In this document: positions 5,975-31,689 of the stretch, one piece after another | Numbering within the stretch: position 1 is the first letter of the stretch | How the letters are laid out: every line of letters begins with the position of its first letter | Assembly (NCBI GenBank): GCA_945863875.1 | Contig: CAMBBS010000009.1 | Location: forward strand, 64,501-128,500 | Reading direction: 5' to 3' | DNA: 64,000 bases | DNA from: Desulfopila aestuarii DSM 18488 | GTDB taxonomy: Bacteria; Desulfobacterota; Desulfobulbia; Desulfobulbales; Desulfocapsaceae | Made by a program: the position numbers and the translations under genes | Notes under the pieces: generated by a model | Database searches by the model: none | What the model saw: the letters and a program-made list of their open reading frames with translations, nothing else | Told to the model about the DNA's origin: nothing

Positions 5975-8155
5975 TCATGGCCTGCACAGTTCCATGGCGG
6001 TGATCTGCCGGCCCAGACCGAGAATGAGGATATTGCTCGTCTCGCTGGTTATGGCAATGTCACCGCCACTAACCAGAGCGCCGGGGATATGGCCCGATTC
6101 GAGAAAAGAAACAGCCAGTGAGGTCGCCACAGCCGAGGCGGAGGCAAATTCACCGATATAGTTCCGATAGTCGACAACAGGGACGGACAGGTGCGAAAGC
6201 GCCATGAACTGTTCGAGCTGCTGCTTTCCTTCCCGGTGCATGGCGGCCGGGATACCGGCTAGAATAAGCGCATAGCCGGACGGTTTGTTCGGGCGGACGC
6301 CGAGCGCATCGACCAGTGCGGCGATAACGCCTTCCGCCTTGCCGCTTTGATAGAAGGGGATGGAAAGAGCGCAGAGCGCATCTTTCATTTCTCTGGTGAC
6401 GCAAAGGGCGCCGCCGCCATCGGCAAGAACCGTTTCGGGGCGGATCGAAGGATCGAGCAGGCGAGAAAACGGATCGTGCCCTTCGTCGGCGCCAAGGATG
6501 ATTGCCGGCTGCGTCGCATCTTCCAATATAAGATCCGCGGCCATTACCGCCTGTTCGAAAGAATAATCCCCCCCGCTGGTGGTGATATTGGGGCCTGTCG
6601 CGCCGAACATGATCGCCACCTGACTGGCCGGGCCGTTATGAACGGAACCGACAAAATCGGTGGGGCTTGGAAATTGTTCCTTGGATTCCGCCAGGCGGGT
6701 GAGGAAATCATGCGTTTCGGACAGGGCCCCCCAGCCGGTGCCCATAAAAACAGAACCTGGCTTTGGGGCATTGACCGCCGCTGTTGTCGCCTTCTCATAG
6801 GCCGCCGCGGCTAAAGAGAGGGTCATTTTCGGCAGCCGTTTGAGCCGACGTATCATGCGTGGCGGCAGGTTCGCGGAAATTATCTCGATTCCGGCCATTC
6901 CGGCAACCGTAGCACCAGTCTGTGTCTGGGCAATGGTTGCGGCAGTGCCACCAGCTCCGGTCAGGCAGGAATACCCGTGAATGGCCAGTCCTGTGCCTCT
7001 TTGTCGAGATGCTGTTCGTTGAAACACATCGGCGGCGCCGATGATGAGAGAGCCGTTGTTGCCGCCGAAACCAAAGGAGTTGGAGAGAACTGCCCGCGCG
7101 GGAAGCTCGAGCGGGTGGGTCAGCGGCTGCAGGCCAAGGGCCGGGTCAACTGTTCTCAGGCCGGTATTGGCGGGCATCAGCCCACGGGTGATGGTCATTG
7201 TCGCAACGACGGCTTCCACAGCCCCGGCGGCGGCCAGGCTGTGGCCGGATGCCCCTTTGATTGAGGAGAGGGGCGGCGGTAGGCTGAAAAGTCTGCGTAC
7301 CGCTTTTGATTCCGCCAGATCGTTATCTGGAGTTCCGGTGCCGTGCAGATTGATGTAATCAATTTCTTCCGGGCCGAGGCCGGCGTCAGTCAGGGCCTGC
7401 CGCATGGCCATGAATGCCCCCTGGCCGTCCGGGTGCGGTGCGGCGGGATGGTAGGCGTCGCAGGATAGTCCGGCGCCGAGGAGTTCGGCAAAACAGGTGT
7501 CGGTTTTTTGGGTGGTGAGGAGCAGCATACCCGCGCCTTCGGCTACCGCCATGCCCCGCCGGTTCTGGTCGAGCGGTCGGCAGCCTGCCTGGTCGACCAG
7601 TTGCAGGGAATGAAAACCAAAATAGGTGAGACGGCTCAGGGAATCGACGCCTCCGGCAAGAACCGTTTCGGCCTGCCCTCGGCGGAGCATTCTCAAGGCC
7701 AGGGCAATGGCGACAACGCCGGAAGAGCAGGCCGTGGAGACAACAAGGGCCGGGCCGGTACAGTTCAGCTGATCGGCGAGGTAGTTGGCAACGGTGTTCA
7801 GGCCGTGGTGCCGATAGCGGTCTTTTTGTTGGTCGTTGCTGCGCAACAGCTTTTCGGTGGTGAGAATGCCGCCGGTTGTGGTGCCGAGAATTATGGCGTC
7901 GGGCGGGCGAATGCATCCGTCCATGGCCTGCCGGGCGGCAAGAGAAGCGAGCAGATGGGTTCTTGGCACAGTTGCCGAATCGCTCAGTCCGCCAACCTGG
8001 CCAACCGGCAGCGGCGACCCGTGCAGCAGGGGAAACAGGGTCAGGGGCCTTATGGCCGAGCGGTTACCGCGCAGGCTCTTTTCCGTTGCGGCCAGGTGGG
8101 AGCCCATCGAGCTGATTATGCCCGTGCCGCGGATATACACCTGTTTGTCGGTCAA
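5975..8155 (-). CDS. Tandem ketosynthase fusion: KS plus Cys-less KS-like half
   Basis: The 726-residue protein contains two thiolase-fold ketosynthases. The N-terminal one is complete: nucleophile C143 in STACSSG, H271 in HGTGTPDND and H305 in GASGHSLAAAG. The C-terminal half (about 375-726) resembles the Ketoacyl-synt_2/chain-length-factor type: FVGSVHNGPAS is present, but the nucleophile position reads TSGGDYSFEQ with no Cys. In aryl-polyene systems the condensing enzyme is a heterodimer of an active KS (ApeO) and a Cys-less partner (ApeC); here the two appear fused. It starts within the stop of the ACP gene (4-base overlap), so both are translated together. It probably performs the repeated chain extension of the locus. 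Confidence 0.88.
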   Translation of the reverse strand: MTDKQVYIRGTGIISSMGSHLAATEKSLRGNRSAIRPLTLFPLLHGSPLPVGQVGGLSDSATVPRTHLLASLAARQAMDGCIRPPDAIILGTTTGGILTTEKLLRSNDQQKDRYRHHGLNTVANYLADQLNCTGPALVVSTACSSGVVAIALALRMLRRGQAETVLAGGVDSLSRLTYFGFHSLQLVDQAGCRPLDQNRRGMAVAEGAGMLLLTTQKTDTCFAELLGAGLSCDAYHPAAPHPDGQGAFMAMRQALTDAGLGPEEIDYINLHGTGTPDNDLAESKAVRRLFSLPPPLSSIKGASGHSLAAAGAVEAVVATMTITRGLMPANTGLRTVDPALGLQPLTHPLELPARAVLSNSFGFGGNNGSLIIGAADVFQRTASRQRGTGLAIHGYSCLTGAGGTAATIAQTQTGATVAGMAGIEIISANLPPRMIRRLKRLPKMTLSLAAAAYEKATTAAVNAPKPGSVFMGTGWGALSETHDFLTRLAESKEQFPSPTDFVGSVHNGPASQVAIMFGATGPNITTSGGDYSFEQAVMAADLILEDATQPAIILGADEGHDPFSRLLDPSIRPETVLADGGGALCVTREMKDALCALSIPFYQSGKAEGVIAALVDALGVRPNKPSGYALILAGIPAAMHREGKQQLEQFMALSHLSVPVVDYRNYIGEFASASAVATSLAVSFLESGHIPGALVSGGDIAITSETSNILILGLGRQITAMELCRP

Positions 8156-8552: not shown

Positions 8553-8593
8553 GAGGAATTTGTCAGCTACTTCTGGAAATGTTTACCAGGGCT

Positions 8594-8673
8594 GAGATGC
8601 GCGAAAGATTTTTATCCACTGTACTCGCGGTACGTGTAAAAGCCGATGACAAAGCAGATTTGGTGCTGGTGAA
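8594..8673 (+). repeat. Dispersed ~80-bp repeat, copy 1
   Basis: GAGATGCGCGAAAGA starts a segment that aligns with 39274-39353; the best-conserved part is TACGTGTaAAAGCCGATG, then ACAAAGCaGATTTGGTGCTGG. One base insertion separates the copies in the middle. Both would encode a peptide of the form MRxR...DKADLVLxNV. It lies in the divergent control region of the biosynthetic locus. Confidence 0.5.
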
Positions 8674-8743
8674 TGTTGACGCTAATATGGTGGCGGTTTC
8701 TTTCATAGTAAGGTATCTTTTTTGCTCTAAAATTAGGACGACA

Positions 8744-9169
8744 ATGACCTTCTCCGACCTGACCCTGGAAGATTTACTGCCGCATCGCGGCCCCATGCTG
8801 CTTATCGAGAAGGTTCTTGAGGTTGATGCCACGCATGCGCTGACGCTGAGCCGTGTGGCAAAATTCTGGCCCATGGCCGATGAGAAAGGCGTGCATCCGT
8901 TGCTTTTGATCGAATTGGCGGCGCAGACCGCAGGGGTGTGCAACGGCTGGGACAGAATACAGGCCAAGGGGCTTGACTCGGAAAAGATGGGCTGGCTGGT
9001 AGGTATCAAAAAAACGGAAATATTCATTGCTTGCCTGCCGTTTGGCGGCAAAATTATCACCAGTGCCGAAAACAGCTATAAGTTTGAGAACCTTCGCGAA
9101 GTGTCCTGCGAACAGCGCATGGGCAATACATTAATCTGTAAAAGTACTCTGCAGCTCTTCCAGGCCTGA
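8744..9169 (+). CDS. FabZ/ApeP-type hot-dog 3-hydroxyacyl-ACP dehydratase
   Basis: A 141-residue single hot-dog protein. The ATG at 8744 is chosen because it has AGGA six bases upstream and begins with the FabZ-like segment MTFSDLTLEDLLPHRGPM; the track start at 8579 adds unrelated sequence. PHRGPMLLIEKV carries the catalytic-type His (residue 14), followed by the central helix LLIELAAQTAG with the Glu. It would remove water from 3-hydroxyacyl-ACP to give the 2-enoyl chain. It opens the rightward operon and is followed closely by the reductase, as ApeP and ApeQ are in aryl-polyene clusters. Confidence 0.85.
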   Translation: MTFSDLTLEDLLPHRGPMLLIEKVLEVDATHALTLSRVAKFWPMADEKGVHPLLLIELAAQTAGVCNGWDRIQAKGLDSEKMGWLVGIKKTEIFIACLPFGGKIITSAENSYKFENLREVSCEQRMGNTLICKSTLQLFQA

Positions 9170-9174
9170 ATGCA

Positions 9175-9948
9175 ATGATAGTCGAAAACGAACAGAACAA
9201 GCAGAACGATCAGATCAGACCAGACCCGGAGCGGATCGCCATAGTTACCGGCGGCAGCAAGGGAATCGGCAGGGCGATCTGCGTCGAGCTGGCCCGCCGT
9301 GCCTGTTACATCGTCATCAACTATATGGCTGATCAGAAGGGCGCCGAAGAGACTTTGGCCCTGGTTGAAGAAATCGGCGGTCGCGGTGAGATCTGTCAGT
9401 TTGATGTCCGTGATGGACAGGCGGCGGAAAAGGTGGTTGCCGATATTGCCGGAAGACTGGGCAGGGTGGATATCCTCATCAACAACGCCGGCATCGTCGC
9501 CGATGGTTTATTCATGATGATGTCGCCGAAAAACTGGCAGTCGGTCATCGATACCAGCCTGAACGGCTTTTATAACATGACCCGCCCGGTGGTAGAGCAA
9601 ATGGTGCGGAGGCGCAAGGGGGCCATCGTGTCCATTTCGTCGGCCAGCTCGCTGATGACCAATCGTGGGCAGGCAAACTACTCAGCGGCCAAGGCCGGTC
9701 TGAATGCCGCCAGCAGGGTCGTCGCCTCGGAGGTCGCCCGGCTCGGAATCAGGGTTAACGTGGTGGCACCGGGCCTGATTGAGACGGACATGATTGCCGC
9801 GGCCCCGAAGGCGGAAATCAAGGCGATGATCCCCATGGCCCGCATCGGTAGGCCGGAAGAAGTGGCCCGGGTTGTCGGCTTTCTCTGTTCCGATGACGCC
9901 TCCTATGTGACGGGACAGGTCATTTCGGTGAACGGCGGTATGTTTTAA
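9175..9948 (+). CDS. FabG/ApeQ-type 3-oxoacyl-ACP reductase
   Basis: A 257-residue classical short-chain dehydrogenase. The cofactor motif TGGSKGIGRAI starts near residue 24, NNAG follows near 105, and the catalytic Ser and YSAAK motifs are intact; the C-terminal VTGQVISVNGG is typical of FabG. It would reduce 3-ketoacyl-ACP with NAD(P)H before dehydration. The first 20 residues (ENEQNKQNDQIRPD) are an unusual polar tail. It starts 5 bases after the dehydratase and overlaps the LolA gene by one base (TAATG). Being in the cluster, it is likely the pathway-specific copy (ApeQ equivalent) and not the housekeeping FabG. Confidence 0.9.
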   Translation: MIVENEQNKQNDQIRPDPERIAIVTGGSKGIGRAICVELARRACYIVINYMADQKGAEETLALVEEIGGRGEICQFDVRDGQAAEKVVADIAGRLGRVDILINNAGIVADGLFMMMSPKNWQSVIDTSLNGFYNMTRPVVEQMVRRRKGAIVSISSASSLMTNRGQANYSAAKAGLNAASRVVASEVARLGIRVNVVAPGLIETDMIAAAPKAEIKAMIPMARIGRPEEVARVVGFLCSDDASYVTGQVISVNGGMF

Positions 9949-10550
9949 TGCCGGCGCATGTGCCGCATGGGCTGCGCATCACCGTGTGCTTCTTTATTCT
10001 TCTGCTGGTTTCGTCCGGCCGGGCTGCTGAGCAGGATGCGCTTCGTCTGCAGTCGATTCAAGCGGATTTTGTCCAGGAAAAGCATCTGAAGATTCTCGTC
10101 CGGCCTCTTGTTTCAACCGGGACCTTGAGCTTTCAGGCGCCACAGTCCCTGCGCTGGGAATATCATACGCCCGTGGCGTCGGTTTTGCTGCTGCACGGCG
10201 GCAGGGCACAGAAATTTATTGCAAGAGATGGACAGCTTGTGGAAGACAAGGGGATGGGACTTGACTCGATGCGGGTCGTGCTGGGCCAGATCAGCTCCTG
10301 GCTTGACGGCCGCTTTGCCGACAGTGAGATGTTCCGTGTCTCTTTTGCCGATGACCGTACCGTTCTGCTCACCCCGAAGCAACAGGCGCTTGCCGGGGTG
10401 ATCAGCAACATTGAACTTAAGCTCGCCGACAGCAAAGGTCTGCTCGATGCGGTGACCATTTATGAAGGTCCCGAATCGTATACGCGGATGACCTTTAGCA
10501 ACAGGGTTCTGAATAAGGAGCTCCCGGCCACTGTATTTACCGTGCAATGA
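9948..10550 (+). CDS. LolA-like outer-membrane lipoprotein carrier family protein
   Basis: A 200-residue periplasmic protein with a signal peptide (hydrophobic VCFFILLLVSSGRAA, cleavage after about residue 27). The mature part reads like LolA: IQADFVQEKHLKILVRPLVS followed by GTLSFQAPQSLRWEY. In aryl-polyene clusters a LolA-like protein (ApeL) and a DUF3261 lipoprotein (ApeN) sit side by side and are thought to help move the lipid through the periplasm; the same pair is found here. Its start overlaps the FabG stop and its end overlaps the lipoprotein start. Housekeeping LolA is unlikely because of the context. Confidence 0.83.
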   Translation: MPAHVPHGLRITVCFFILLLVSSGRAAEQDALRLQSIQADFVQEKHLKILVRPLVSTGTLSFQAPQSLRWEYHTPVASVLLLHGGRAQKFIARDGQLVEDKGMGLDSMRVVLGQISSWLDGRFADSEMFRVSFADDRTVLLTPKQQALAGVISNIELKLADSKGLLDAVTIYEGPESYTRMTFSNRVLNKELPATVFTVQ

Positions 10551-11233
10551 GACCGTACTCCTTCTTTTGTTCCGTCCTCTTGTTGGGCCTGGTGGCCTGT
10601 GCCGCAGAAAAGCAGCCTCGCCTGCCGCAGTTGATAGGGGTGGCAGAGAGCCTGGGAAAAAATGACTGTGCCGCTGTTTATCCACAAGGAAAACGGCAGT
10701 TTGTCCACGCCATCGACTTTGTCATGCAGGGTGGCTCCGGCACGGCGGTGGTCGGCGTGACCAGCCTGAACGGCAATAATATCGCCTGCGCCCTGGTCAC
10801 CGTCGAAGGGCTGACTCTCTTTGAGGCGGTTTTCCGGCATGACGAAAGTTTCAAGGTCAAGCGGGCTGTGCCTCCCTTTGATGCCCCGGAGTTTGCCACG
10901 GGCCTGATCGGCGACATCCGGGCAATATTTCAGCCGCCTCCGGGCCACGGCAACAGGGGGCAATTACTTTTACCGGCACCGGCAGCAGGGCTAACAGCCG
11001 TCTGCCGCTATAAAGATCCGGCCGGCGGGGTGGTTGATGTGCTGCCGGATGTCGGTGGCTGCTGGCAGATAAGGAGCTATACCCCGGACGGCGTATTGGA
11101 TCGCACTATTGTCGGACGCTCCTGCAGAGAGCAGGGCACCGGCCTGATCCCGGACTACATCGAGCTGAAAACCTACGGCCGGACCGGCTATACTCTGAAA
11201 ATGACCTTGATACGTGCTGATAATGTTTTATGA
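10547..11233 (+). CDS. DUF3261-type lipoprotein (ApeN-like)
   Basis: A 228-residue protein beginning with a lipoprotein signal peptide; the lipobox LVAC places the lipidated Cys at residue 18. The body follows the DUF3261 pattern known from aryl-polyene clusters, where it is encoded next to the LolA-like carrier. An outer-membrane location is inferred because no Asp follows the Cys. It overlaps the preceding gene by 4 bases and the following radical SAM gene by 4 bases, so the periplasmic and radical-chemistry genes are one transcript. Its precise role, perhaps as acceptor of the exported lipid, is not established. Confidence 0.75.
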   Translation: MRPYSFFCSVLLLGLVACAAEKQPRLPQLIGVAESLGKNDCAAVYPQGKRQFVHAIDFVMQGGSGTAVVGVTSLNGNNIACALVTVEGLTLFEAVFRHDESFKVKRAVPPFDAPEFATGLIGDIRAIFQPPPGHGNRGQLLLPAPAAGLTAVCRYKDPAGGVVDVLPDVGGCWQIRSYTPDGVLDRTIVGRSCREQGTGLIPDYIELKTYGRTGYTLKMTLIRADNVL

Positions 11234-12498
11234 AATTTAAACTGATATACCCTAAATGGGCCAAACTGGACCGGCAGACGGAGTTCCACCTGCCGCCGCA
11301 TGGCCCGGTGGTCTTTGCCGCGACACTCCCCGAGTATGTTGACGTCGATTTTGTCGATGAAAATCTGCAGGCGATAGATTTTGACGAGGCCGTCGATTTC
11401 GTCGGTATCTCGATGATGCTCACCGTCCAGGTGAAAAGAGGCTGGGCGATTGCCGACAGGTATCGCAAGAAAGGCGTCAAGGTAATCTTTGGCGGCATCG
11501 CCACCATGCTCCATGCTGAGGAGACCATGGCCCACGCCGATGCGGTTTTTCTCGGGGAAGCGGAAGGCCGGATGGAACAGGTGCTTGCCGATTTCCGCCA
11601 GGGAAAGCTGCAGCCCTGCTATGATTTTATCGACGACAGGCCGGATATTGCCCTGGTCGGTCCGGCGCGCCGGGATATCCTCGATCGCAGGCTCTATAAC
11701 TATAAGGGCGTGCAGATGGTCGATCTGGTGCATGCCTCACGCGGCTGCCGTTTCAACTGCTATCCTTGCGCCGTATCCTATCTGGGCGGAAGACAGTTTC
11801 GCCCCCGCCCCATTGACAAGGCGATAGCCGAGATCGCCGGCATTGACAACAACCGGCTGTTTATTGTCGACAATTCCCTGGCTCAGGATACCAAATGGGA
11901 GATGGAGCTGTTTAAGGAGATGATTCCGCTGAAAAAAAAGTGGTGTTCTCATCCCATTGAAGACAAACCGGAAGTCCTTGACCTGGCCGCCCAGGCCGGG
12001 GCCTGGTATGTCTATCAGGCGGTTTTTGATACCTCGGATTACATCAAGGAGCGCATTAAGCGCTACCACGATCACGGTATCGGTGTGGAGGGCACTATTC
12101 TGCTCGGACTGGACGGCCACAATGAGGATAACATCAAGAAACTCATTGATTTCCTCCTGGAGATCAAACTCGATCTTGCCGAATTTACTGTCCTGACGCC
12201 TTTTCCCCACACCAAGGCCTATGCCGAACTGAACCGGCAAAACCGCATCCTGACCCGGGACTGGAATGATTATTCCGCCGATCGGGTGGTCTTTCAGCCG
12301 AAGAATATGTCTCGGGAGCGACTGCAGGAGCTGTTGGATTACGCCTGGAATACCTTCTATCAGGATGAACCGCAATCGATAAAGATGGCCAGACTTTTCC
12401 AGCAGGTTGTGAAAAAAGAAATGGCCGACAATACCTTCAGGCCGCGGGACAGAGAGCTGAGCGGACAATCTTTCGGCAGGCTGGTAACCAGGGAGTAG
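11230..12498 (+). CDS. Radical SAM enzyme with N-terminal B12-binding-like domain (1 of 2)
   Basis: A 422-residue protein with a Rossmann-like N-terminal domain of the cobalamin-binding type (GVKVIFGGIATMLHAEE) and a radical SAM domain whose cluster Cys are C173, C177 and C180 (CRFNCYPC). The AdoMet cluster would generate a 5'-deoxyadenosyl radical. Family members do methylations, ring contractions or cyclisations; a DxHxxG cobalamin-ligating motif is not obvious, so cobalamin use is uncertain. It lies between the lipoprotein and AMP-ligase genes with overlaps or zero spacing. Typical aryl-polyene clusters have no such gene. The substrate is presumably the ACP-bound or released acyl chain. 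Confidence 0.85.
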   Translation: MKFKLIYPKWAKLDRQTEFHLPPHGPVVFAATLPEYVDVDFVDENLQAIDFDEAVDFVGISMMLTVQVKRGWAIADRYRKKGVKVIFGGIATMLHAEETMAHADAVFLGEAEGRMEQVLADFRQGKLQPCYDFIDDRPDIALVGPARRDILDRRLYNYKGVQMVDLVHASRGCRFNCYPCAVSYLGGRQFRPRPIDKAIAEIAGIDNNRLFIVDNSLAQDTKWEMELFKEMIPLKKKWCSHPIEDKPEVLDLAAQAGAWYVYQAVFDTSDYIKERIKRYHDHGIGVEGTILLGLDGHNEDNIKKLIDFLLEIKLDLAEFTVLTPFPHTKAYAELNRQNRILTRDWNDYSADRVVFQPKNMSRERLQELLDYAWNTFYQDEPQSIKMARLFQQVVKKEMADNTFRPRDRELSGQSFGRLVTRE

Positions 12499-13911
12499 AT
12501 GAACGCTGATTTTTCGCTGGACAGAGAACAGGCCGTACACCGCCTGCTGCAGGGGCCGAAATATCCCAACCAGGAATTTGTCCGCTGCGGTGCCACCTTT
12601 GCCGAGGTGTATGCCATGGCGGACTGGCTGCGTGCTGCGCTGGCCGGCCCGGAGTATCAGGGCGCGGCAGTCTGTCTTGCCGCCGAGAACAAAGCCGTTA
12701 TCGCCGCGGCCCTGTTAGCCTCCCTGGCCGGCGGGCCGACCCTGCTGCTGCCCTATGCGTTTTCCGCCAAGGTGCTGGCCCGGATGCAGCAGGCTGCCGG
12801 GTTTACCACCGTTATCTCGGATGTGCACAGACCTTGGCCGGAAGGGGTACGGGTGATCTGCCCTCAAATGTCAGGGCGGCAAACGGTCGGATCTGCGTTA
12901 TTTTCGATTGACGGCCAGGCGTCACCCCGCGCCGAGCTGCTGAAAATTTTTACCGGCGGGTCCACCGGTACGCCGCAGCTCTGGGCGAAAACCGCCGAAA
13001 ATATTTTCGGCGAAAGCTTTTTCCTGGCCGAGCGGTTCAAGGTGACAGAACGGGACTGTATCATGGCCACCATCCCGCCGTATCATATCTATGGCCTGCT
13101 CTTCTCCGTGGCGCTGCCCCTCGTTTCTTCGGCGGTCGTCGTGGGCGAGACGCCTTCTTTTCCATACGAAATTGCCGAGGCCGCGCGAGCACATCAGGTG
13201 ACTCTTCTCGCCAGCGTTCCGGCGCATTACCGGGCACTGCGCGAGGTGAAAAAAGATATCTCGCTGCGCCTGGCTTTTTCCTCGGCCGGCATGCTCGACG
13301 CCGGCGATAATGAAGCCTTTTGCCGGAGGCACAGGGTGGGTGTGGTGGAGGTGTACGGCTCGACGGAAACCGGCGGCATCGCCACGCGCAACCGGTCGTT
13401 TGGGGAAGATTTCTTTACGCCGTTTCCAACCCTTGACTGGCAGATTATCGAGGAGCGCCTGGCGGTACGTTCGCCTTATATTTCCCCTGATCTCCCCATT
13501 GACTCGGTCGGCTTTTTTACTTCGAGCGATCGGGTGGAGGCGTGCGGGAGAAATGCCTTTGTCCTGAAAGGCCGGGCCGACGCGGTAACCAAGGTAGGAG
13601 GAAAGCGGGTGGATCTCGAAGAAATCCGTGCCCTGATCAAGAAGGTAGCAGGCGTCGCCGACTGTGCGGTCATGGCCTTGGCCGAATCCGGCGGCAGAGA
13701 GCACCACATCGGCGTATTGATTCAGGGGCAAGACGTTGGAGTTGGCATTGACGTTGGGGTTGAGGTTGATACGGAGCTGATCAAAAAAACCCTGGCCGAC
13801 GCCCTCGAACCCTATGCCCTGCCGCGTCGGATGAAAATTGTCGAGCGGATTCCAATGAAAGATAACGGTAAATACGACTGGCCGGGCATCGGCCGGATTT
13901 TACGCACATGA
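12499..13911 (+). CDS. AMP-dependent acyl/aryl ligase (ApeH-like)
   Basis: A 470-residue adenylate-forming enzyme starting directly after the previous stop. The phosphate loop FTGGSTGTPQ, the A5-type VYGSTETGG and a C-terminal NGKYDW segment with the expected catalytic Lys are all present. It activates a carboxylic acid as acyl-AMP and transfers it to CoA or ACP, probably loading the starter unit onto an ACP as ApeH does. A short low-complexity stretch near residue 415 (DVGVGIDVGVEVD) comes from GTTG-type DNA repeats and probably forms a loop. The end overlaps the fatty-acid kinase gene by 4 bases, which couples two acid-activating enzymes. Confidence 0.87.
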   Translation: MNADFSLDREQAVHRLLQGPKYPNQEFVRCGATFAEVYAMADWLRAALAGPEYQGAAVCLAAENKAVIAAALLASLAGGPTLLLPYAFSAKVLARMQQAAGFTTVISDVHRPWPEGVRVICPQMSGRQTVGSALFSIDGQASPRAELLKIFTGGSTGTPQLWAKTAENIFGESFFLAERFKVTERDCIMATIPPYHIYGLLFSVALPLVSSAVVVGETPSFPYEIAEAARAHQVTLLASVPAHYRALREVKKDISLRLAFSSAGMLDAGDNEAFCRRHRVGVVEVYGSTETGGIATRNRSFGEDFFTPFPTLDWQIIEERLAVRSPYISPDLPIDSVGFFTSSDRVEACGRNAFVLKGRADAVTKVGGKRVDLEEIRALIKKVAGVADCAVMALAESGGREHHIGVLIQGQDVGVGIDVGVEVDTELIKKTLADALEPYALPRRMKIVERIPMKDNGKYDWPGIGRILRT

Positions 13912-15626
13912 GCGACCTTCGTCAAAGTTTTGCCGCAGGCTATGGAGGCCTTTCTGCCTGGGCCGATCTGCTCGACCGGATCAATGTCTTCCCTGTCGCC
14001 GATGGGGACACCGGCACCAATCTGCGCATCAGCCTGGCGCCGCTGCGCGATCTTGATGAAGATCGCGAGAATATTCCCGAACTGCTCGCCCGTACCGCCA
14101 CCGGTAATTCCGGTAATATCGCCGCGGCGTTTTTCCGGGAATTCTGCCGGGCAAAAAGCTACGCCGATCTGGCGGCAAAAGCAGCATCCGGCAGGAATGC
14201 AGCCTGGCAGGCCATTGCCGACCCACGTGCGGGGACGATGCTCACGGTTTTCGACAGCCTTGCCAAGGTTCTTGCACTGCATAGTGACATGACAGCAATG
14301 TATATCCCGCTCACTATTGAGATGCAGGATGCCGTCCGTGACACCTCGCAGCTCCTGCCTGAACTCAAGACTGCCGGGGTGGTCGATTCCGGCGCCTTGG
14401 CCATGTACGTTTTTTTCGATGGATTTTTCCGGCAGGTCACCCGGCAAAAAGATGAATCCTGTTCCATTCTTGATCTCTTTGCCGGCAAATTAGTCATCAA
14501 CAGCTCCTTTCGACCGGAAATCAGTGACGGCTATTGTGTTGATGCGGTCATTCAAATGGCTGATACAAACGCCGCGGTTGAAGACTCCCTTGCAGCGATG
14601 GGCGGGAGCGTGGTCATGGTGAAAGATGAAGCGATGCTCAAGGTTCATCTCCACACCACCGACCTCGACCGGTTGCGCGGAGGGCTTGGATCGTTCGGTG
14701 CTATCGTCCACTGGTCTGCTGAGGAAATCAATCAAGGAACCGTGGAGCAATATTCCCAACCTGTGGAGAAATCAGCTCTTCATATTGTCACCGATGCTGC
14801 CGGGTCGACGACCAGGGACATGGCCCGGCAACTTGGTATGACCCTGCTTGACAGTTATATAATAACGGGTGACAGCTCAAGGCCCGAAAGTCTCTATCGC
14901 CCGGAACAGATCTATCCTTTGATGCGGAGTGGCGTAAAGATAACCACCGCCCAGGCCTCTAATTATGAAAGGCATCAACACTATCAGAGTATTGGGCAGC
15001 AGTTCGGCCGTTCCCTGTATCTCTGTGTCGGCTCCGCTTTTACCGGTAACTACGATACTGCCGCGGCGTGGAAGAAAGAACATGATTTCGACGATCTGCT
15101 GAAGGTGATCGATACCGGCGCAGCCTCCGGGCGGCTTGCCCTCATTGCCCTGCTCACCGCCCGGCAGGCAAAGCGTATTGCCAGTCCGGATGACGTCATT
15201 GGTTTTGCACGAAAGGCCATTGCCGATTGTGAAGAGTTTGTCTTCATCGATGAGCTGAAATATCTGGTGGCCGGTGGCCGGATTTCCAGAACAAGCGGAT
15301 TTTTCGGCGACCTGTTGTCGATGAAACCGGTGGTCAGCCCGACCAGTGTGGGCGTGCAGAAAGTGGGGGTGGTCCACAGTAGAAAGGGGCAACTCGCCTT
15401 TGCCATGGCAAGGCTGGAGAAGCGGTTTGAAAGATCCGCCGCACCGGTGGTTATGCTGCAGTATACCGATAATGAACAGTGGGTGGGGGATTTTGTCCGG
15501 CAGCAGATAGAGGTGCTTTTGCCGGAAGCGGAAATCCTGCTTGTCCCGCTGTCGCTGACTTCCGGGGTGCACATGGGGCCGGGAACCTGGTCGATAGCCT
15601 TCAGTTCATCCTCTGCCGAAACATGA
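13908..15626 (+). CDS. Fused fatty-acid kinase: FakA (DhaL plus middle domain) with FakB/DegV
   Basis: A 572-residue fusion. Residues 1-180 are a DhaL/DAK2 nucleotide-binding domain with the Mg-ATP motif VADGDTGTNL (33-39), TGNSGN and AGVVDSGALAMY. Residues about 195-270 match the FakA middle domain (MLKVHLHTTDLDRLRGGLGSFGAI). From about 291 to the end is a DegV fold (VTDAAGSTTRDMARQLGM, then KITTAQAS). In Gram-positives FakA phosphorylates a fatty acid bound to separate FakB; here both are one chain, which should make acyl-phosphate in cis. Placed between an AMP ligase and a glycosyltransferase, it probably activates or recycles a cluster-specific fatty acid. No other characterised pathway of this type that I know contains it. 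Confidence 0.83.
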   Translation: MSDLRQSFAAGYGGLSAWADLLDRINVFPVADGDTGTNLRISLAPLRDLDEDRENIPELLARTATGNSGNIAAAFFREFCRAKSYADLAAKAASGRNAAWQAIADPRAGTMLTVFDSLAKVLALHSDMTAMYIPLTIEMQDAVRDTSQLLPELKTAGVVDSGALAMYVFFDGFFRQVTRQKDESCSILDLFAGKLVINSSFRPEISDGYCVDAVIQMADTNAAVEDSLAAMGGSVVMVKDEAMLKVHLHTTDLDRLRGGLGSFGAIVHWSAEEINQGTVEQYSQPVEKSALHIVTDAAGSTTRDMARQLGMTLLDSYIITGDSSRPESLYRPEQIYPLMRSGVKITTAQASNYERHQHYQSIGQQFGRSLYLCVGSAFTGNYDTAAAWKKEHDFDDLLKVIDTGAASGRLALIALLTARQAKRIASPDDVIGFARKAIADCEEFVFIDELKYLVAGGRISRTSGFFGDLLSMKPVVSPTSVGVQKVGVVHSRKGQLAFAMARLEKRFERSAAPVVMLQYTDNEQWVGDFVRQQIEVLLPEAEILLVPLSLTSGVHMGPGTWSIAFSSSSAET

Positions 15627-16327
15627 AACCAGCCGTCATTATCCCTGTTTACAATCACGGCCGGCAGATTGGCGAGGTTGTCCGGCGAACCCTGAAACTT
15701 GGTTTTGCTGTTTTTGTCGTCGATGACGGCTCAACGGATGGCACAGCCCAGGTTATCGAGGCGATCAGCGGCATCACTGTCCTGCGCCATGCCGTCAACC
15801 TCGGCAAAGGTGCGGCCATTCTTACCGGTTTGGCGGCGGCACATGAAAACAAATGCGATTGGGCCATTACCCTGGACGGCGATGGCCAACATAACCCTGA
15901 AGATGCCGGGGCATTGCTGGATGCGGTGAGTGTTGCGGAGCGCTGCATTGTCATCGGTAAGCGGCAGGGGATGGAAGAGCAACAAAATGTGCCCTGGACC
16001 AGCAGATTCGGTCGCAGGTTTTCTAACTTCTGGGTCTGGGTGGCCGGTGGGCCGCGGGTGGAGGATTCCCAGTCCGGGTTCAGGCTCTATCCTGTTCCGG
16101 AGGCCCTGCAGCTGGGGGTTGAAGCCCGGCGCTACCAGTTCGAGGTGGAAATACTGGTCAAAGCCCGGCAGCATGGGATGAAGACCAAAGCTGCGCCCGT
16201 GTCGGTCGTCTATCAGGCAAAGGGCGAGCGAGTCAGCCATTTTCGGCCCTGGCGTGACTTTATGCGTAATTCAGCCACCTTCAACAGACTGATCTTTGCC
16301 CGTATCTTCAGGGTATTTCGCCGATGA
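15623..16327 (+). CDS. Family 2 glycosyltransferase
   Basis: A 234-residue GT-A enzyme of the dolichyl-phosphate-mannose synthase-like branch. The start at 15623 overlaps the kinase stop (ATGA) and begins MKPAVIIPVYNHGRQIGE; the track start at 15479 lies inside the kinase. DDGSTDGT and the metal-binding DGDGQH are present, and there is no membrane helix. It transfers a sugar from a nucleotide sugar to a lipid-type acceptor. In aryl-polyene clusters a glycosyltransferase fused to an acyltransferase (ApeJ) occurs; here the two activities are adjacent separate genes with a 4-base overlap, suggesting a glycolipid product. Confidence 0.87.
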   Translation: MKPAVIIPVYNHGRQIGEVVRRTLKLGFAVFVVDDGSTDGTAQVIEAISGITVLRHAVNLGKGAAILTGLAAAHENKCDWAITLDGDGQHNPEDAGALLDAVSVAERCIVIGKRQGMEEQQNVPWTSRFGRRFSNFWVWVAGGPRVEDSQSGFRLYPVPEALQLGVEARRYQFEVEILVKARQHGMKTKAAPVSVVYQAKGERVSHFRPWRDFMRNSATFNRLIFARIFRVFRR

Positions 16328-17193
16328 ACGGCTTCTGGTATAAACTGCTTGTCCGGCTTGCCAACCGAACTGGATCGTGGTTCTTTGCCCTTGTCTCGAG
16401 GATTATCGCCGTCGGGTATTTTGTCTTTTCCGGACGGGTTCCTGAAAGTCGCCGTTTCTATGCAGCTCTTTTTCCCGAGCGTGGACGGTTCTACCACCTC
16501 TGGTGCACTTTCCAGCAATTTCAGAATTTCACCACCATCCATTTCGACCGGTTCTTGATGGCCAAAGCCAGACCAACGACTTTTACCGCCGAGGGGTGGG
16601 AGAATATGGCAGCTGTCAGCGGCCAAAAGGGCGGCATTCTGCTTATGTCTCACCTCGGTAACTGGGAAATGGCGGCAACGCTGCTCAAACAACGGGAAAA
16701 AGATCTGCAGCTCCTGCTCTATATGGGCATGAAAGAAAAAGAAGGTGTGGAACGAGTGCAAAAAGAGGAGCTGCGCCGATGCGGAATAACCATCATCGCG
16801 GCAGATAAGGAAAACAGTTCACCGTTTACTGCCGTGGAGGGCATTCGCTTTCTGCAGTCGGGCGGTTTGGTTTCCATGGCGGGGGATATCGTCTGGCGCA
16901 GCGACCAGCGCAAGGTGCGGGTGACCTTTCTGGGACATGATGCCTACCTGCCGGAAGCACCTTTCGTCTTCGCCCTGGTTTCAGGTGCGCCGCTGCTGGT
17001 CTTTTTTGTCTTTCGCACCGGTAAAAGCAGCTATCATTTTACCCTTTGCGAACCGATTGTCATCCAGCCGACATCCCGCCAGGCCCGGCCCGAGGCCATT
17101 GCCCGGGCCGCCCAGCAATATGCCGACCTGCTGGAACAGTCCCTGCGACAACATCCCTGCGAATGGTACCATTTCGGTCGTTTTATTTACTGA
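16324..17193 (+). CDS. LpxL/HtrB-type lipid acyltransferase
   Basis: A 289-residue member of the lysophospholipid/lipid A acyltransferase family, with an N-terminal hydrophobic anchor and the catalytic HxxxxE motif in SHLGNWEM (about residue 108). The family moves acyl chains from ACP onto lipid A or similar glycolipids at the cytoplasmic face of the inner membrane. Its overlap with the glycosyltransferase gene suggests it attaches the pathway's acyl chain to the sugar lipid. It is the last gene of the 8744-17193 operon. A role as housekeeping LpxL is possible but less likely given the context. Confidence 0.86.
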   Translation: MNGFWYKLLVRLANRTGSWFFALVSRIIAVGYFVFSGRVPESRRFYAALFPERGRFYHLWCTFQQFQNFTTIHFDRFLMAKARPTTFTAEGWENMAAVSGQKGGILLMSHLGNWEMAATLLKQREKDLQLLLYMGMKEKEGVERVQKEELRRCGITIIAADKENSSPFTAVEGIRFLQSGGLVSMAGDIVWRSDQRKVRVTFLGHDAYLPEAPFVFALVSGAPLLVFFVFRTGKSSYHFTLCEPIVIQPTSRQARPEAIARAAQQYADLLEQSLRQHPCEWYHFGRFIY

Positions 17194-18793: not shown

Positions 18794-19051
18794 ATGACCA
18801 GAGATGAATTTAAAGATAAAATCCTGACAATTCTTACCGAAGATTTTGAATTTGAACAGCCGGGCCTGGATGACAACCTCCGGGATGACCATGGTTTTGA
18901 TAGTATCGATGCCATTGAACTGCTGGGGAAAATAGAACTTCTTCTCGGCTTTTCCTTCACCCGGGAAGAAAAGGAAAAGGCTATGGAAATCAGGACGATT
19001 AGTGATATCCTTGATTATGTTGAAGGAATTCAACACTCTCGAAACTCCTAG
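18794..19051 (+). CDS. Acyl carrier protein
   Basis: An 85-residue acidic carrier with the phosphopantetheine motif GFDSIDAIELL, Ser37. It is the second of three discrete ACPs in the locus and starts the 18794-23627 unit, 14 bases before a ketosynthase gene with which it probably pairs. It differs clearly from the ACPs at 8.2 and 26.3 kb, so each carrier may serve a separate stage (initiation, extension or modification). Confidence 0.9.
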   Translation: MTRDEFKDKILTILTEDFEFEQPGLDDNLRDDHGFDSIDAIELLGKIELLLGFSFTREEKEKAMEIRTISDILDYVEGIQHSRNS

Positions 19052-19065
19052 GCTGGCCTCTTTTC

Positions 19066-20325
19066 ATGAAACGACGTGTTGTCATCACTGGTTGCTCGGC
19101 CATTACTCCCATTGGTTACGGAAAAAACGATATTATCGACAGTCTCAGGCAGGGTAAATCCGGAGTCGGCTTCCTGCGTGATGACGGCCTGTTGTCAAAG
19201 CACATCCACTCCCGTGTCTTCGGCACGGTGGATTACCCCATCGACTACGGCTTCAAGCGGCAATACCGCAAAACCATGGGTCCGGTGGCCTACTATGCCT
19301 GTCAGGTGGCCAAAGATGTTCTGGAAAGCTCCGGGCTGAGCCAGGAATTTATTACTTCCGGCCGTCTCGGGGTGGCCTTTGGTTCCACCCATGGCAGCCC
19401 GACCGTGCAGCGGGAAATCTACAAGACCTTTTTCAGCGATCTCGAATCAAAATTTTCTTCCATCGGCGCGGTCGATTATCTGCGTTCCATGGTGCACACG
19501 ACGGCGGTGAACATCAGCCGCATGTTCGGCATCACCGGGCGGATCATTGCCTCGTCCACCGCCTGCACAACCAGCAGTCAATCCATTGGCTTTGGGTATG
19601 AAACGATCAAATACGGCATGCAGGATGCGATGATCTGCGGGGGCGCGGATGAGTATGATACCACCACGGTGGCGGTTTTTGATAACCTGCTCGCCTGTTC
19701 GGTGAAGTACAACCAGACGCCGCAGTGCACCCCGCGTCCTTTTGATGCCGGTCGAGACGGCCTGGTGGTCGGTGAGGGCGGTGGCGCGGTACTACTTGAA
19801 GAGTACGAGTCGGCAAAAAAACGTGGCGCGGACATCCTGGGCGAAGTCATCGGATTTGCCTGCAACAACAACGGCGGAGATCTGATCCTGCCCAACCTCG
19901 ACGGCATTACGGCAACCCTGCGACTCGCCCTTAAAGACGCGGAGATCCTTGCCAAAGATGTCGATTTTGTCAGCGCCCACGCCACGGCGACGAAAATGGG
20001 TGATGTCATCGAGGCCCAGGCCATTGACGCCGTGTATGGCGGCGACCCGCTGAACAGGCCGCTGGTCACTGGTCTGAAAAGCTATATGGGCCATACCATG
20101 GGAACCTGTGGGGTGATCGAGACCATTTTGACCCTGTACATGATGGAACAGAGCTTTATTGCTCCGACGCTGAATCTGGAAAATGTTGATGAACGCTGCA
20201 GCATGCTGCGGCATACCCGTGAATTGACGGAGACTGAGACGAAAATAGCAGCGATTCAAAATTTTGCCTTTGGTGGAGTGAATACCTGTCTGCTTGTGAA
20301 AAATGGCAGAGATGCAGAATTATAA
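19066..20325 (+). CDS. Ketosynthase, FabF-like
   Basis: A 419-residue single ketosynthase. The nucleophile is C167 in STACTTSSQ; the two His appear in SAHATATKMGD (slightly altered from the usual HGTxT) and in GHTMGTCG. All three catalytic residues are therefore present and the enzyme should be active in Claisen condensation. It follows its own ACP and overlaps the PlsC-type acyltransferase by 23 bases. The altered HATAT motif sets it apart from FabF and from the KS at 29.9 kb, suggesting a different chain length or substrate. ApeR-type ketosynthases of aryl-polyene clusters are a plausible analogue. Confidence 0.88.
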   Translation: MKRRVVITGCSAITPIGYGKNDIIDSLRQGKSGVGFLRDDGLLSKHIHSRVFGTVDYPIDYGFKRQYRKTMGPVAYYACQVAKDVLESSGLSQEFITSGRLGVAFGSTHGSPTVQREIYKTFFSDLESKFSSIGAVDYLRSMVHTTAVNISRMFGITGRIIASSTACTTSSQSIGFGYETIKYGMQDAMICGGADEYDTTTVAVFDNLLACSVKYNQTPQCTPRPFDAGRDGLVVGEGGGAVLLEEYESAKKRGADILGEVIGFACNNNGGDLILPNLDGITATLRLALKDAEILAKDVDFVSAHATATKMGDVIEAQAIDAVYGGDPLNRPLVTGLKSYMGHTMGTCGVIETILTLYMMEQSFIAPTLNLENVDERCSMLRHTRELTETETKIAAIQNFAFGGVNTCLLVKNGRDAEL

Positions 20326-21097
20326 CGACTCCAGTCAACCTCAGCTTTGGCTGGATCGAGGTATTGACTGCATTGTCACCCTGATCTGCTGGGGATGGTT
20401 TCTTTTTGGTTTCATCCTCTTTTTTTCCTGGCGTTATCTCGTCGCCGCTCTGGCGGCCAAAGATCCGGAACTGACCTTTCAGAGGTTGAACAGCCGGTTC
20501 TACCAAATATTTTTTCGTATAGTCAGGGTTGCTGCTCCCCGGCAGCGGATAGAAATTGATGACAAGGTTGCGGCGATCAGATCATCGGTTATTGTCTGCA
20601 ACCATCTTTCCTATCTCGATCCATTGCTGCTCATCGCTCTTTTCCCGCAACAGCGGACCATTGTTAAAACTCGATTCTTTACGATCCCGATCTTTGGCTG
20701 GATAATTACTAGGGCGGGGTATCTTCCTGCTACCGGCGGGGGACCGTTTGCCAAACTGATGATCAGGCAGATGGATACAATGCCATCCTATCTGCGAGCC
20801 GGCGGCAATCTGTTCGTTTTTCCGGAAGGAACCAGGAGCCGGGACGGCAAGCTCGGCAATTTGCATAAAGGAGCATTCAAAATAGCCCGATTATGCAGGG
20901 CCCCCCTTTATGTTCTGGACATCTGCAATACCGATAAACTGTTTACTCCAGGTAAATTTCTCTTTAATACCAGGAGGGAAAACAGTATCAGCGTTAAAAT
21001 TATCGATTGTATCGAACCGGACTATCAACGGAACCCAGCCACAACGGCAGAGCTTGAGCTGAGGGTGCGGCAGGCGTACTGCGAGAGACAGAAATGA
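20303..21097 (+). CDS. 1-acylglycerol-3-phosphate acyltransferase (PlsC family)
   Basis: A 264-residue membrane-bound acyltransferase with a hydrophobic N-terminus (ICWGWFLFGFILFF), the HxxxxD motif in NHLSYLDP and the substrate motif FPEGTRSRDG. It esterifies an acyl chain onto a lysophospholipid or related acceptor. The start lies inside the preceding ketosynthase gene; a second ATG at 20312 is equally possible. With the LpxL-type enzyme at 16.3 kb, the locus has two acyltransferases, implying that the product acyl chain ends up in a membrane lipid with more than one ester or amide position. Confidence 0.88.
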   Translation: MAEMQNYNDSSQPQLWLDRGIDCIVTLICWGWFLFGFILFFSWRYLVAALAAKDPELTFQRLNSRFYQIFFRIVRVAAPRQRIEIDDKVAAIRSSVIVCNHLSYLDPLLLIALFPQQRTIVKTRFFTIPIFGWIITRAGYLPATGGGPFAKLMIRQMDTMPSYLRAGGNLFVFPEGTRSRDGKLGNLHKGAFKIARLCRAPLYVLDICNTDKLFTPGKFLFNTRRENSISVKIIDCIEPDYQRNPATTAELELRVRQAYCERQK

Positions 21098-25984: not shown

Positions 25985-26338
25985 ATGGAAGAAGGTAAGA
26001 TAGTTGCATCCGTGACAACTGATGGCAGTTCTCCCTGGTTTTCCGGTCACTTTCCCGACAACCCGATTTTACCGGGAATCGCCCAGTTGAAGATGGTTGC
26101 CGATCTCATTGCCTTGTCCGGAACAGGTGGTTTATCCATGTCCGGACTCGGCAGGATTAAGTTCAGAAAAATTGTCAGGCCGGGGGATTTGCTTGATATT
26201 CAAATCATATGCGGCGATAAAAAAGATCAATATAATTTCAAGATTACCTGCGGGAACGACGATGTCTGTTCCGGCTGGATGTTTTTTACCAAAGCACAAC
26301 ACGAAAACACGAAAACGACACAAATAACGAATTCATGA
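25985..26338 (+). CDS. ApeI/FabA-like hot-dog dehydratase
   Basis: A 117-residue small hot-dog protein with the motif WFSGHFPDNPILPGIAQL, in which the HFP..PILPG pattern is that of FabA/FabZ-type 3-hydroxyacyl-ACP dehydratases. It is shorter than the dehydratase at 8.7 kb and could be the ApeI-type partner of that ApeP-like protein, as the two form a heterodimer in aryl-polyene systems. The start has no strong ribosome-binding site. It heads the 25985-32513 operon and overlaps the next ACP by 4 bases. Confidence 0.82.
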   Translation: MEEGKIVASVTTDGSSPWFSGHFPDNPILPGIAQLKMVADLIALSGTGGLSMSGLGRIKFRKIVRPGDLLDIQIICGDKKDQYNFKITCGNDDVCSGWMFFTKAQHENTKTTQITNS

Positions 26339-26601
26339 ACAACGATATCACGCAAACTATCACTCGAATCGCTGAAATCATCATTGACGAGCTCAAACTT
26401 GAAGACGTCACCCCCGAGACCTTTGATCCCGACCTGGATTTAGTCAACGAGGTGGGCGTCGACTCCATGGATATGGCCACGGTTGCCCTGTTTCTCAGAG
26501 ATGAGTACGAGATACAGATCGACGAAGACGATTATCCCAAGCTGACCACCGTTCGTATCATTGCCCGGTACATCGACGACAAACTTACCAGTAACGATTA
26601 G
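26335..26601 (+). CDS. Acyl carrier protein
   Basis: An 88-residue carrier, the third of the locus, with VGVDSMDMATV containing the phosphopantetheine Ser44. It is acidic and helical as expected. It overlaps the preceding dehydratase by 4 bases and touches the radical SAM gene that follows directly after its stop. Its place just before two radical SAM genes suggests those enzymes may act on chains bound to this carrier. Confidence 0.88.
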   Translation: MNNDITQTITRIAEIIIDELKLEDVTPETFDPDLDLVNEVGVDSMDMATVALFLRDEYEIQIDEDDYPKLTTVRIIARYIDDKLTSND

Positions 26602-27657
26602 ATGTCCGCTGAACAGCACTACAAATTTTCCGATATCATCGCCGATCCGATTATTAGAGAGCGGTGGGAAAAGGTTCGCCGCTATTTCTTTTTGCGCGAA
26701 TCGACGTATGACATGAGCAACCGGTGTAATATCCGGTGTGAAGGCTGTTATTATTTTGTCGGCGAGAAGCAGTTTGCCGAAGAAAATACCAGTGAAAGTG
26801 CCTGGCGGCAGTTGCTGGAATCGGAAAAAAAGCGGGGCATCACCTTTGTTGTCCTGGCCGGCGCCGAACCCTCGCTGGTGCCGCGGTTGTGCGCGGTGTG
26901 TCATGAAGTCATTCCCCTTGGGGCGATAGCCACCAACGGCCTGAAACAACTCCCTCGGGAGATAGATTACCGCGTCCACATTTCCGTCTGGGGCAATGAT
27001 CAGACCAGCCTGGCCACGCGCAAGGCCCCGGACATGCTCCTCCGGCAGATGGCCAACTATAAGGACGATCCACGGGCGGTCTTTGTCTATACCTTCACGC
27101 CATATAACATCGATGAGGTTCGTCAGGTGACGAAAACCCTGGCGGATAATGGCCAGCAGATCACCTTTAACATGTTTTCCGCCCCTGTCGGGTACGACGG
27201 CCCTCTCCGTCATACCAGCCAGTCCCTGCGGAGAACCGCGGTAATCATGGGCGAAATGTTGGCTGAATATCCGCAAACGGTTCTTTTTTCGCCGTATAAT
27301 ATCGCCGCCCATACCTCGGAAAAGGGGTTGCATGACCTTTTTTCCTGCACCTATCCCCGGATGAATGCGGCAACTGATATCGGCCTCGGCAGATCCTTCC
27401 GGCAGTATCGCACCGATCTGCAGTGGAACCGTGATGCCGCCTGCTGTGTGCCGGATACTGACTGCCGTGACTGCCGGCATTACGCCGCCGGCAGTGCCGT
27501 GGTTACCGCCAGAATGTATCGGCATGCTACCGACCCGGTGACTTTTTCGTCCTGGCTCGACTATGCTGACACCTATCTTGCCGTCTGGGTCAGAGGCTAT
27601 GCCAAGGGGCCGAACCTCTGTGCAGCCATGATCAATCCGCCTTTACCTTATTCGTAA
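26602..27657 (+). CDS. Radical SAM enzyme with C-terminal Cys cluster (tandem copy A)
   Basis: A 351-residue radical SAM protein starting straight after the ACP stop. The core cluster Cys are C42, C46 and C49 (CNIRCEGCYYF). Near the C-terminus the Cys group AACCVPDTDCRDCRHYAAG looks like an auxiliary cluster site. It shares layout and motifs with the next gene: a short N-terminus ending in YDM/YDV, the CNxRCxGC triad and a final Cys group. They are therefore divergent tandem paralogues. The reaction is unknown; a lipid-bound substrate is inferred from context. Confidence 0.84.
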   Translation: MSAEQHYKFSDIIADPIIRERWEKVRRYFFLRESTYDMSNRCNIRCEGCYYFVGEKQFAEENTSESAWRQLLESEKKRGITFVVLAGAEPSLVPRLCAVCHEVIPLGAIATNGLKQLPREIDYRVHISVWGNDQTSLATRKAPDMLLRQMANYKDDPRAVFVYTFTPYNIDEVRQVTKTLADNGQQITFNMFSAPVGYDGPLRHTSQSLRRTAVIMGEMLAEYPQTVLFSPYNIAAHTSEKGLHDLFSCTYPRMNAATDIGLGRSFRQYRTDLQWNRDAACCVPDTDCRDCRHYAAGSAVVTARMYRHATDPVTFSSWLDYADTYLAVWVRGYAKGPNLCAAMINPPLPYS

Positions 27658-27661
27658 CATC

Positions 27662-28660: not shown

Positions 28661-28667
28661 ATGGACA

Positions 28668-29918: not shown

Positions 29919-29947
29919 CTCCAGATAAATATGCAGCACAAAAGCAC

Positions 29948-31213: not shown

Positions 31214-31689
31214 TGCGACCAAAACCCCTTCTTTACGAATTTCTCGACCAACCAGGCTATATCAAAGAGAGCAGCAGCGGCAAGATCTGGCACCGTTGCG
31301 AACTGCGCACCCTGTATGTCGATACCGATCGTTCGCAGGTTGTCTACCATGCCAACTATCTAAAATATTTTGAATTCGGCCGGGCGTCGTTGATGCGTGA
31401 CGCAGCTTATCCTTATAAGAAAATTGAGGAAAGCGGCTATCTCTATCCGATAATAAAAACTGAGCTCAACTATTACTCGCCGCTCTTTTACGACGACCTG
31501 ATGTATATCTACACCCGACCGGGCAAGCTGGAGATGGTCAAATTACAGTTTGACTATGTCATTACCAGGGCCGACAACGGTGAAATCTGCTGCACCGGTT
31601 TTACCAGGCACTGTGCCGTAAACGGCAGGAGTATCCCGGTTGAGATTGATCAACAGACCATCAAGCTGTGGAATGGGTTTCCCCGTTGA
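31213..31689 (+). CDS. 4HBT/YbgC-type thioesterase (ApeK-like)
   Basis: A 158-residue hot-dog thioesterase. The segment LYVDTDRSQVVYHANYLKYFE holds the 4HBT-family pattern with the catalytic-type Asp near residue 37-39 and the HANYLxYFE helix. It would hydrolyse an acyl-ACP or acyl-CoA, releasing the finished or aborted chain; ApeK plays this part in aryl-polyene clusters. The start overlaps the KS stop and its own stop overlaps the next start, so translation is coupled along the operon. Confidence 0.85.
   Translation: MRPKPLLYEFLDQPGYIKESSSGKIWHRCELRTLYVDTDRSQVVYHANYLKYFEFGRASLMRDAAYPYKKIEESGYLYPIIKTELNYYSPLFYDDLMYIYTRPGKLEMVKLQFDYVITRADNGEICCTGFTRHCAVNGRSIPVEIDQQTIKLWNGFPR

Follow-up and report, generated by a model that had tools for sequence, protein, structure and literature searches.

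A predicted single-chain acyl kinase linked to aryl-polyene-like gene clusters in Desulfobulbales

A DhaL, FakA middle and DegV domain fusion

The stretch of Desulfopila aestuarii DSM 18488 DNA analyzed here (64,000 nucleotides of contig CAMBBS010000009.1, positions 64,501 to 128,500; hereafter the window) contains an open reading frame with an ATG start that encodes a protein of 572 amino acids, a candidate acyl kinase in which the DhaL, FakA middle and DegV/FakB domains share one frame. In the Pfam analysis, residues 29-173 match Dak2/DhaL (PF02734, E 9e-17), residues 208-274 match FakA-like_M (PF21645, E 1e-9) and residues 291-566 match DegV (PF02645, E 3e-36), the last over nearly the full profile. 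All three matches exceed the curated cut-offs and lie far beyond chance, which confirms the contiguity of the domains that had been noted in the original prediction. The gene and its domains are as follows.

13908..15626, +: predicted single-chain acyl kinase, DhaL-FakA middle-DegV/FakB fusion, 572 amino acids (Pfam, NCBIfam, homologues, model)
13992..14426, +: DhaL/Dak2 (FakA_N-like) ATP-Mg domain (PF02734, conservation)
14529..14729, +: FakA middle (FakA_L-like) domain (PF21645, conservation)
14778..15605, +: predicted DegV/FakB-like acyl-binding domain (PF02645, profile, model, conservation)

Homologues span the fusion from end to end, and most are uninterrupted, with one in-frame stop in each of four rows. 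The gene is joined to its neighbors by ATGA overlaps at both ends: the stop of an AMP-forming ligase gene at 13911 overlaps the fusion ATG at 13908, and the fusion stop at 15626 overlaps the ATG of a GT2 glycosyltransferase gene at 15623. The NCBIfam DegV match also exceeds its cut-off, and the whole-protein FakA models are missed (FakA_VfrB, 92.8 of 975 bits; YloV, 148.8 of 396.1 bits). Pfam finds no match in the fusion to FakA_C (PF13684), the domain of FakA to which FakB docks, and the DegV domain occupies its place. Across the whole 4.7 Mb genome, the fusion is the sole match to DhaL/Dak2 and the sole match to DegV, so that the genome-wide DegV search yields no separate FakB. Because a second DegV protein is absent, we infer that the fusion must act as a one-chain kinase, if it is a Fak at all, and its C-terminal domain could not dock another DegV-type FakB in this genome.

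The catalytic and ligand residues were scored over an alignment of 65 rows, with reference residues for the FakA nucleotide/Mg site and the Cys240-His282-His284 triad taken from PMC9136124, and those for the FakB1 network (Thr62, Ser95 and His270 at the carboxylate, with the catalytic Arg173) taken from PMC8892158.

N26, D32, D34, T35, N67, D160: FakA N32, D38, D40, T41, N82, D185 (D160 is placed via the VVDSG motif)
C210, H247, H249: catalytic FakA C240, H282, H284
T347, S376, R458, H555: taken as FakB1 T62, S95, R173, H270

The DhaL nucleotide site is present, with N26, D32, D34, T35 and D160 in 65/65 rows and N67 in 64/65, as is the middle-domain triad (C210 and H247 in 65/65, H249 in 64/65). 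The FakB-type network is retained as well, R458 and H555 in every row, T347 in 64 and S376 in 61. The ATP-binding Asp and DegV pocket residues, on which the original prediction depended, are thus conserved over these rows. The position of FakB1 Ser171 is Gly456 in the fusion and is likewise Gly in the DegV protein 1pzx. In addition, W561, which lies with H555 in the motif GVHMGPGTW, is invariant in the fusion family but not in the DegV proteins compared.

Comparisons with solved structures assign the two halves of the protein in the same manner. A profile built from 16 fusions matches S. suis FakA (7w7h) at 8e-58 over positions 5-288 and matches solved FakB/DegV structures over about 290-570. 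The AlphaFold2 model is of moderate confidence (mean pLDDT 72.5, pTM 0.50), as it was built from a nine-sequence alignment. Its target TM-scores are about 0.75-0.84 against DegV/FakB structures and 0.61-0.66 against FakA_N, and the relative placement of the domains in the model is unreliable.

Linkage of the fusion to an aryl-polyene-like cluster

Homologues of 14 of the 17 Ape proteins of E. coli CFT073 (ApeO, ApeC, ApeP, ApeQ, ApeL, ApeH, ApeJ, ApeE, ApeF, ApeR, ApeD, ApeI, ApeK and ApeM) are encoded between 5975 and 37621, in agreement with the original placement of the fusion inside a biosynthetic cluster; ApeB, ApeG and ApeN have no match among the window proteins in this comparison. The gene set typical of aryl polyene (APE) loci is found together, comprising ketosynthase/chain-length factor, ketoreductase, dehydratases, acyl carrier proteins, ligase, thioesterase, glycosyltransferase/acyltransferase, PlsC-like, MMPL and LolA homologues. 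Several radical S-adenosylmethionine (SAM) proteins, including a B12-binding radical SAM protein, are encoded alongside. Judged by its gene content, the locus is an APE-like cluster with B12/radical-SAM enzymes.

The fusion occurs in 100 of 258 genomes of the order Desulfobulbales (104 genomes matched, four of them via other DegV proteins alone). It closely accompanies the high-identity orthologue of the B12-binding radical SAM protein: 93 genomes have both, 7 have the fusion only and 3 the partner only (p about 2e-57, a value that, like the other p-values here, treats related genomes as independent and so overstates independence). The exceptions to this pairing sit mostly in fragmented assemblies. 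The gene order B12-binding radical SAM protein, AMP ligase, fusion, GT2 hardly varies in Desulfobulbales and two Chromatiaceae, the ligase lying upstream in 43 of 46 loci and the GT2 gene downstream in 39. In the present clade the fusion is strictly tied to a lipid-pigment locus, and a distribution mostly outside lipid loci, which would have counted against the original prediction, is not seen there; among the distant fusions, at least that of Listeria lies outside such loci.

The same cluster with the same gene order is present in Allochromatium palmeri and Thiorhodococcus mannitoliphagus (L039 and L040), whose fusions nest among those of Desulfobulbales with strong support in the tree. Because the Chromatiaceae copies are nested in this way and share the gene order, the cluster and kinase probably moved there together by horizontal transfer. 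A search of 210 genomes centered on the order of Allochromatium returned one distant fusion besides the two known Chromatiaceae, and a tblastn search against plasmids returned distant fusions only, with less than 30% identity.

A sister B12-binding radical SAM protein (56-62% identity) is found in 35 genomes of Desulfobulbales, one of which (G091) also has the fusion. In the clusters that carry the sister form (type B), a second B12-binding radical SAM protein stands where the ligase and kinase sit, and one such locus, L088, encodes a ligase of its own along with a PagL-like protein and an amine oxidase.

The other features of the window cluster are listed below.

5975..8155, -: ketosynthase and chain-length-factor-like half in one chain (ApeO + ApeC), on the strand opposite to the operon
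8579..9169, +: ApeP-like dehydratase (Pfam/NCBIfam, Ape homology)
9175..9948, +: ApeQ/FlxB-like ketoreductase (Pfam/NCBIfam, Ape homology)
9948..10550, +: LolA-like carrier (Pfam/NCBIfam, Ape homology)
10547..11233, +: hypothetical protein, no family match in the family scans
11230..12498, +: B12-binding radical SAM protein (Pfam), near-obligate partner of the fusion, 78-90% identity among relatives
12499..13911, +: AMP-forming acyl ligase, ApeH-like (Pfam; E 4e-30 to CFT073 ApeH)
15623..16327, +: GT2 glycosyltransferase, homologous to ApeJ over its N-terminal part (Pfam, Ape homology)
16324..17193, +: LpxL-like acyltransferase, homologous to ApeJ over its C-terminal part (Pfam, Ape homology)
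18794..19051, +: acyl carrier protein (family scan)
19066..20325, +: ApeR-like ketosynthase (family scan, Ape homology)
20303..21097, +: PlsC-like acyltransferase, ApeD-like (family scan, Ape homology)
25985..32513, +: ApeI-like dehydratase, acyl carrier protein, two radical SAM proteins, two ketosynthases, thioesterase and polyketide synthase-type dehydratase (family scans); the PlsY-type gene closes this block in other Desulfobacterota
31213..31689, +: YbgC/4HBT thioesterase, ApeK-like; candidate source of free acid (family scan, Ape homology)
33724..36834, +: ApeM-like MMPL/RND exporter whose chain also carries a methyltransferase domain at the C-terminus (amino acids about 841-1007)

The B12-binding radical SAM protein matches known families weakly, and its identity across the order compares with values nearer 50-70% for its neighbors; by this measure it is unusually constrained. 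A minus-strand pair within the cluster (23663-25620) encodes a peptidase U32-like protein and a methyltransferase, and among the compared loci recurs solely in L049. A divergent fusion (43%) at L079:8441-10171 has no recognized cluster gene within 10 kb and an EPSP (5-enolpyruvylshikimate-3-phosphate) synthase gene close by.

Loading of the aromatic starter is the task of ApeH in pathways of the E. coli type (PMC8253772). Because the window AMP ligase is ApeH-like, it is probably an ordinary starter-loading enzyme. Two acid-activating enzymes therefore do stand side by side, as originally proposed, with the qualification that one of them is the expected starter ligase; it is plausible that each of the two would activate a different acid.

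A PlsY paralogue and a proposed acyl-phosphate route

PlsY is an acyltransferase that uses acyl-phosphate as a donor (PMC9136124), and PlsY (PF02660) was sought because of the acyl-phosphate idea. A scan of loci of +/-10 kb for PlsY and PlsX first gave a single PlsY match, which pointed to a distinct paralogue. A search of the phylum with one member as the query detects the paralogue in 16 of the 395 genomes; the fusion is present in 15 of these. The scores of the paralogue (at least 165 bits) are separated by a gap from those of ordinary PlsY (at most 85). Among the 19 fusion genomes examined outside Desulfobulbales, 15 have the paralogue, mostly amid APE-like genes. The co-occurrence is significant both overall (Fisher p 5e-18) and outside Desulfobulbales (2e-22), although the genomes are related and independence is overstated. 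In ten of the loci read, the paralogue follows a ketosynthase-ketosynthase-thioesterase-dehydratase block that is homologous to 28629-32513 of the window. Examples of the paralogue are the following.

L146:9894-10484, -: PlsY paralogue
L144:9325-9894: PlsY paralogue
L142:8661-9248, -: PlsY paralogue
L148:8469-9083: PlsY paralogue

The paralogue matches PF02660 and keeps the motifs SGNxGxxNVxR and GGKGVA. Compared with ordinary PlsY, it shares about 30% identity, GH is replaced by GN and the C-terminal GxE is lost, which suggests a changed acceptor. Both PlsY forms are clearly present in three genomes (G303, G338 and G340). Since PlsY consumes acyl-phosphate and the paralogue co-occurs with the fusion, a putative producer and a consumer of acyl-phosphate are found together. 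This association in other lineages supports an acyl-phosphate step in the predicted pathway. The proposal that the kinase hands acyl-phosphate on within the pathway thus gains independent support from other Desulfobacterota; that the immediate neighbors in the window take it up is only a possibility, as this genome lacks such a PlsY.

The loci outside Desulfobulbales also differ in their upstream genes. A 4HBT thioesterase gene lies immediately upstream of the fusion in 13 of 19 loci, and an aromatic ammonia lyase (PF00221), which in many cases precedes the thioesterase, lies shortly upstream in 11 of 19. The presence of the lyase fits an aromatic starter for a putative APE-type product.

The architecture, the conserved active site, the cluster linkage and the PlsY association are sequence-based, and from them we infer an enzymatic activity, an acid and an acceptor. 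On this basis, the fusion is probably an acyl kinase that is complete in itself and serves an aryl-polyene-type lipid pathway specifically. A free long-chain acid would sit in the DegV domain with its carboxylate exposed; the DhaL domain would contribute ATP-Mg, the Cys-His-His triad would come from the middle domain, and the acid would be converted to acyl-phosphate with no need for a separate FakB protein. Most likely, a 4HBT thioesterase of the cluster would release this acid from carrier protein. Candidates for the acid are the polyene acid and, alternatively, an ordinary fatty acid belonging to the lipid anchor, and the aromatic starter is less likely. The acyl-phosphate may then serve as the acyl donor for the anchor, via a PlsY-type acyltransferase in the genomes that have one; in Desulfobulbales, it may be used via the ordinary PlsX/PlsY of the genome or another acyltransferase. 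A wider scheme is offered tentatively, as a possibility on which the evidence is nearly balanced: aryl-polyene-type lipids of Desulfobacterota may be built via acyl-phosphate, with the one-chain kinase followed in many lineages by the altered-acceptor PlsY paralogue, leading to the lipid anchor. No description of an acyl-phosphate step for these lipids in sulfate reducers and their relatives is present in the literature searched.

Several observations weigh against a dedicated kinase and its PlsY partner. The 20 type B loci read (L084-L103) contain a related cluster and no fusion nearby, so that the kinase would be dispensable for some such pathways, and the ape cluster of CFT073 has no such kinase. 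Around the fusion, other cluster genes are absent in two loci (L075 and L079) and only partly present in a third (L071). The PlsY paralogue is the sole PlsY found in twelve fusion genomes and thus is possibly a housekeeping enzyme there, it is absent from 4 of the 19 fusion genomes outside Desulfobulbales, and in G460 it occurs without the fusion and outside any APE-like locus. In the genome of the window, the search finds ordinary PlsY and PlsX only.

These last two enzymes could take up the acyl-phosphate if the fusion, the sole Fak-like protein of the genome, were the general Fak of the lineage that feeds phospholipids by salvage, in which case its location in the cluster would reflect chance or co-regulation. 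However, across the 258 Desulfobulbales genomes the fusion accompanies a single cluster type almost without exception and is absent from most others, it apparently traveled with the cluster to Chromatiaceae, and its neighbors are nearly fixed, which makes this explanation unlikely. Less likely still is a kinase for the aromatic starter (cinnamate, coumarate or hydroxybenzoate) in place of a long-chain acid. The ammonia lyase upstream in relatives is in its favor, and the invariant W561 near the carboxylate-binding histidine could signal an altered pocket; however, the window already encodes an ApeH-like starter ligase, long acyl chains are the ligands in solved DegV/FakB structures, and the usual direct neighbor is the thioesterase and not the lyase. 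That the DegV part is a FakA_C-like dock or sensor for another, substrate-carrying protein is highly improbable: FakA_C resembles FakB in structure and has the same place in FakA (PMC9136124), and the Listeria and Acetoanaerobium fusions match PF02645 and PF13684 alike, but the window protein lacks a PF13684 match, covers the DegV profile almost completely and conserves the FakB-type T347, R458 and H555 in a genome with no second DegV.

The predicted dedicated kinase bears on how aryl polyenes are anchored. In E. coli, roles of ApeK (thioesterase), ApeD and ApeJ (acyltransferases) in APE release and attachment are only proposed, and no hydrolysis by ApeK was observed in vitro (PMC8253772). An acyl kinase bound to the pathway, together with the PlsY-type enzyme that accompanies it, would be a concrete route for attaching aryl polyene acids to a lipid anchor and, if true, an acyl-phosphate branch devoted to a specialized lipid and not to membrane phospholipid. 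Additionally, a one-chain Fak would allow the phosphorylation of a DegV-bound acid by a DhaL domain to be studied in compact form.

Comparison with known systems

Relative to the ape cluster of CFT073, of which the matched proteins include the ligase ApeH, the thioesterase ApeK, the glycosyltransferase/acyltransferase ApeJ and the exporter ApeM, the window differs in its fused ketosynthase and chain-length factor, in an ApeJ that is split in two and in its several radical SAM proteins, whereas the CFT073 cluster has no radical SAM genes. The ladderane and Desulfotalea polyunsaturated hydrocarbon clusters also belong to anaerobes and combine ketosynthases with radical SAM genes, as in the window; a kinase or DegV is unmentioned in PMC2649909, which describes them. 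A ladderane assignment was rejected, as the B12-binding radical SAM proteins of the window score 42.1 and 96.2 bits against the TIGR04072 cut-off of 360 and the gene content differs. No amine oxidase was detected among the window cluster genes scanned.

A close parallel is the FakA-FakB fatty acid kinase, known from Staphylococcus aureus and from the S. suis complex 7W7H. The fusion likewise has a DhaL ATP-Mg domain and a Cys-His-His middle domain, together with a FakB-type acyl-binding fold and its Thr/Ser/His/Arg network. It differs in being one chain, in which a FakB-like domain replaces FakA_C and no separate FakB exists. FakA-FakB serves general fatty acid uptake, whereas the fusion goes with an APE-like cluster.

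Single-chain proteins with this three-domain order also occur, as generic fusions, in other bacteria.

L133:5977-7746: DhaL-FakA middle-DegV fusion, Listeria
L132:5977-7752: DhaL-FakA middle-DegV fusion, Acetoanaerobium
L136:1261-3228: DhaL-FakA middle-DegV fusion, gammaproteobacterium

These proteins share 22-25% identity with the window fusion and form a separate clade on a very long branch, and the Listeria fusion sits among unrelated genes and not in an APE-like locus. The literature searched, which reached few subscription papers, makes no mention of DegV together with aryl polyenes, and the search for fused DAK2/DegV proteins returned nothing relevant. What appears new within that literature is the clade bound to the pathway, together with its PlsY partner; the fused architecture itself is not.

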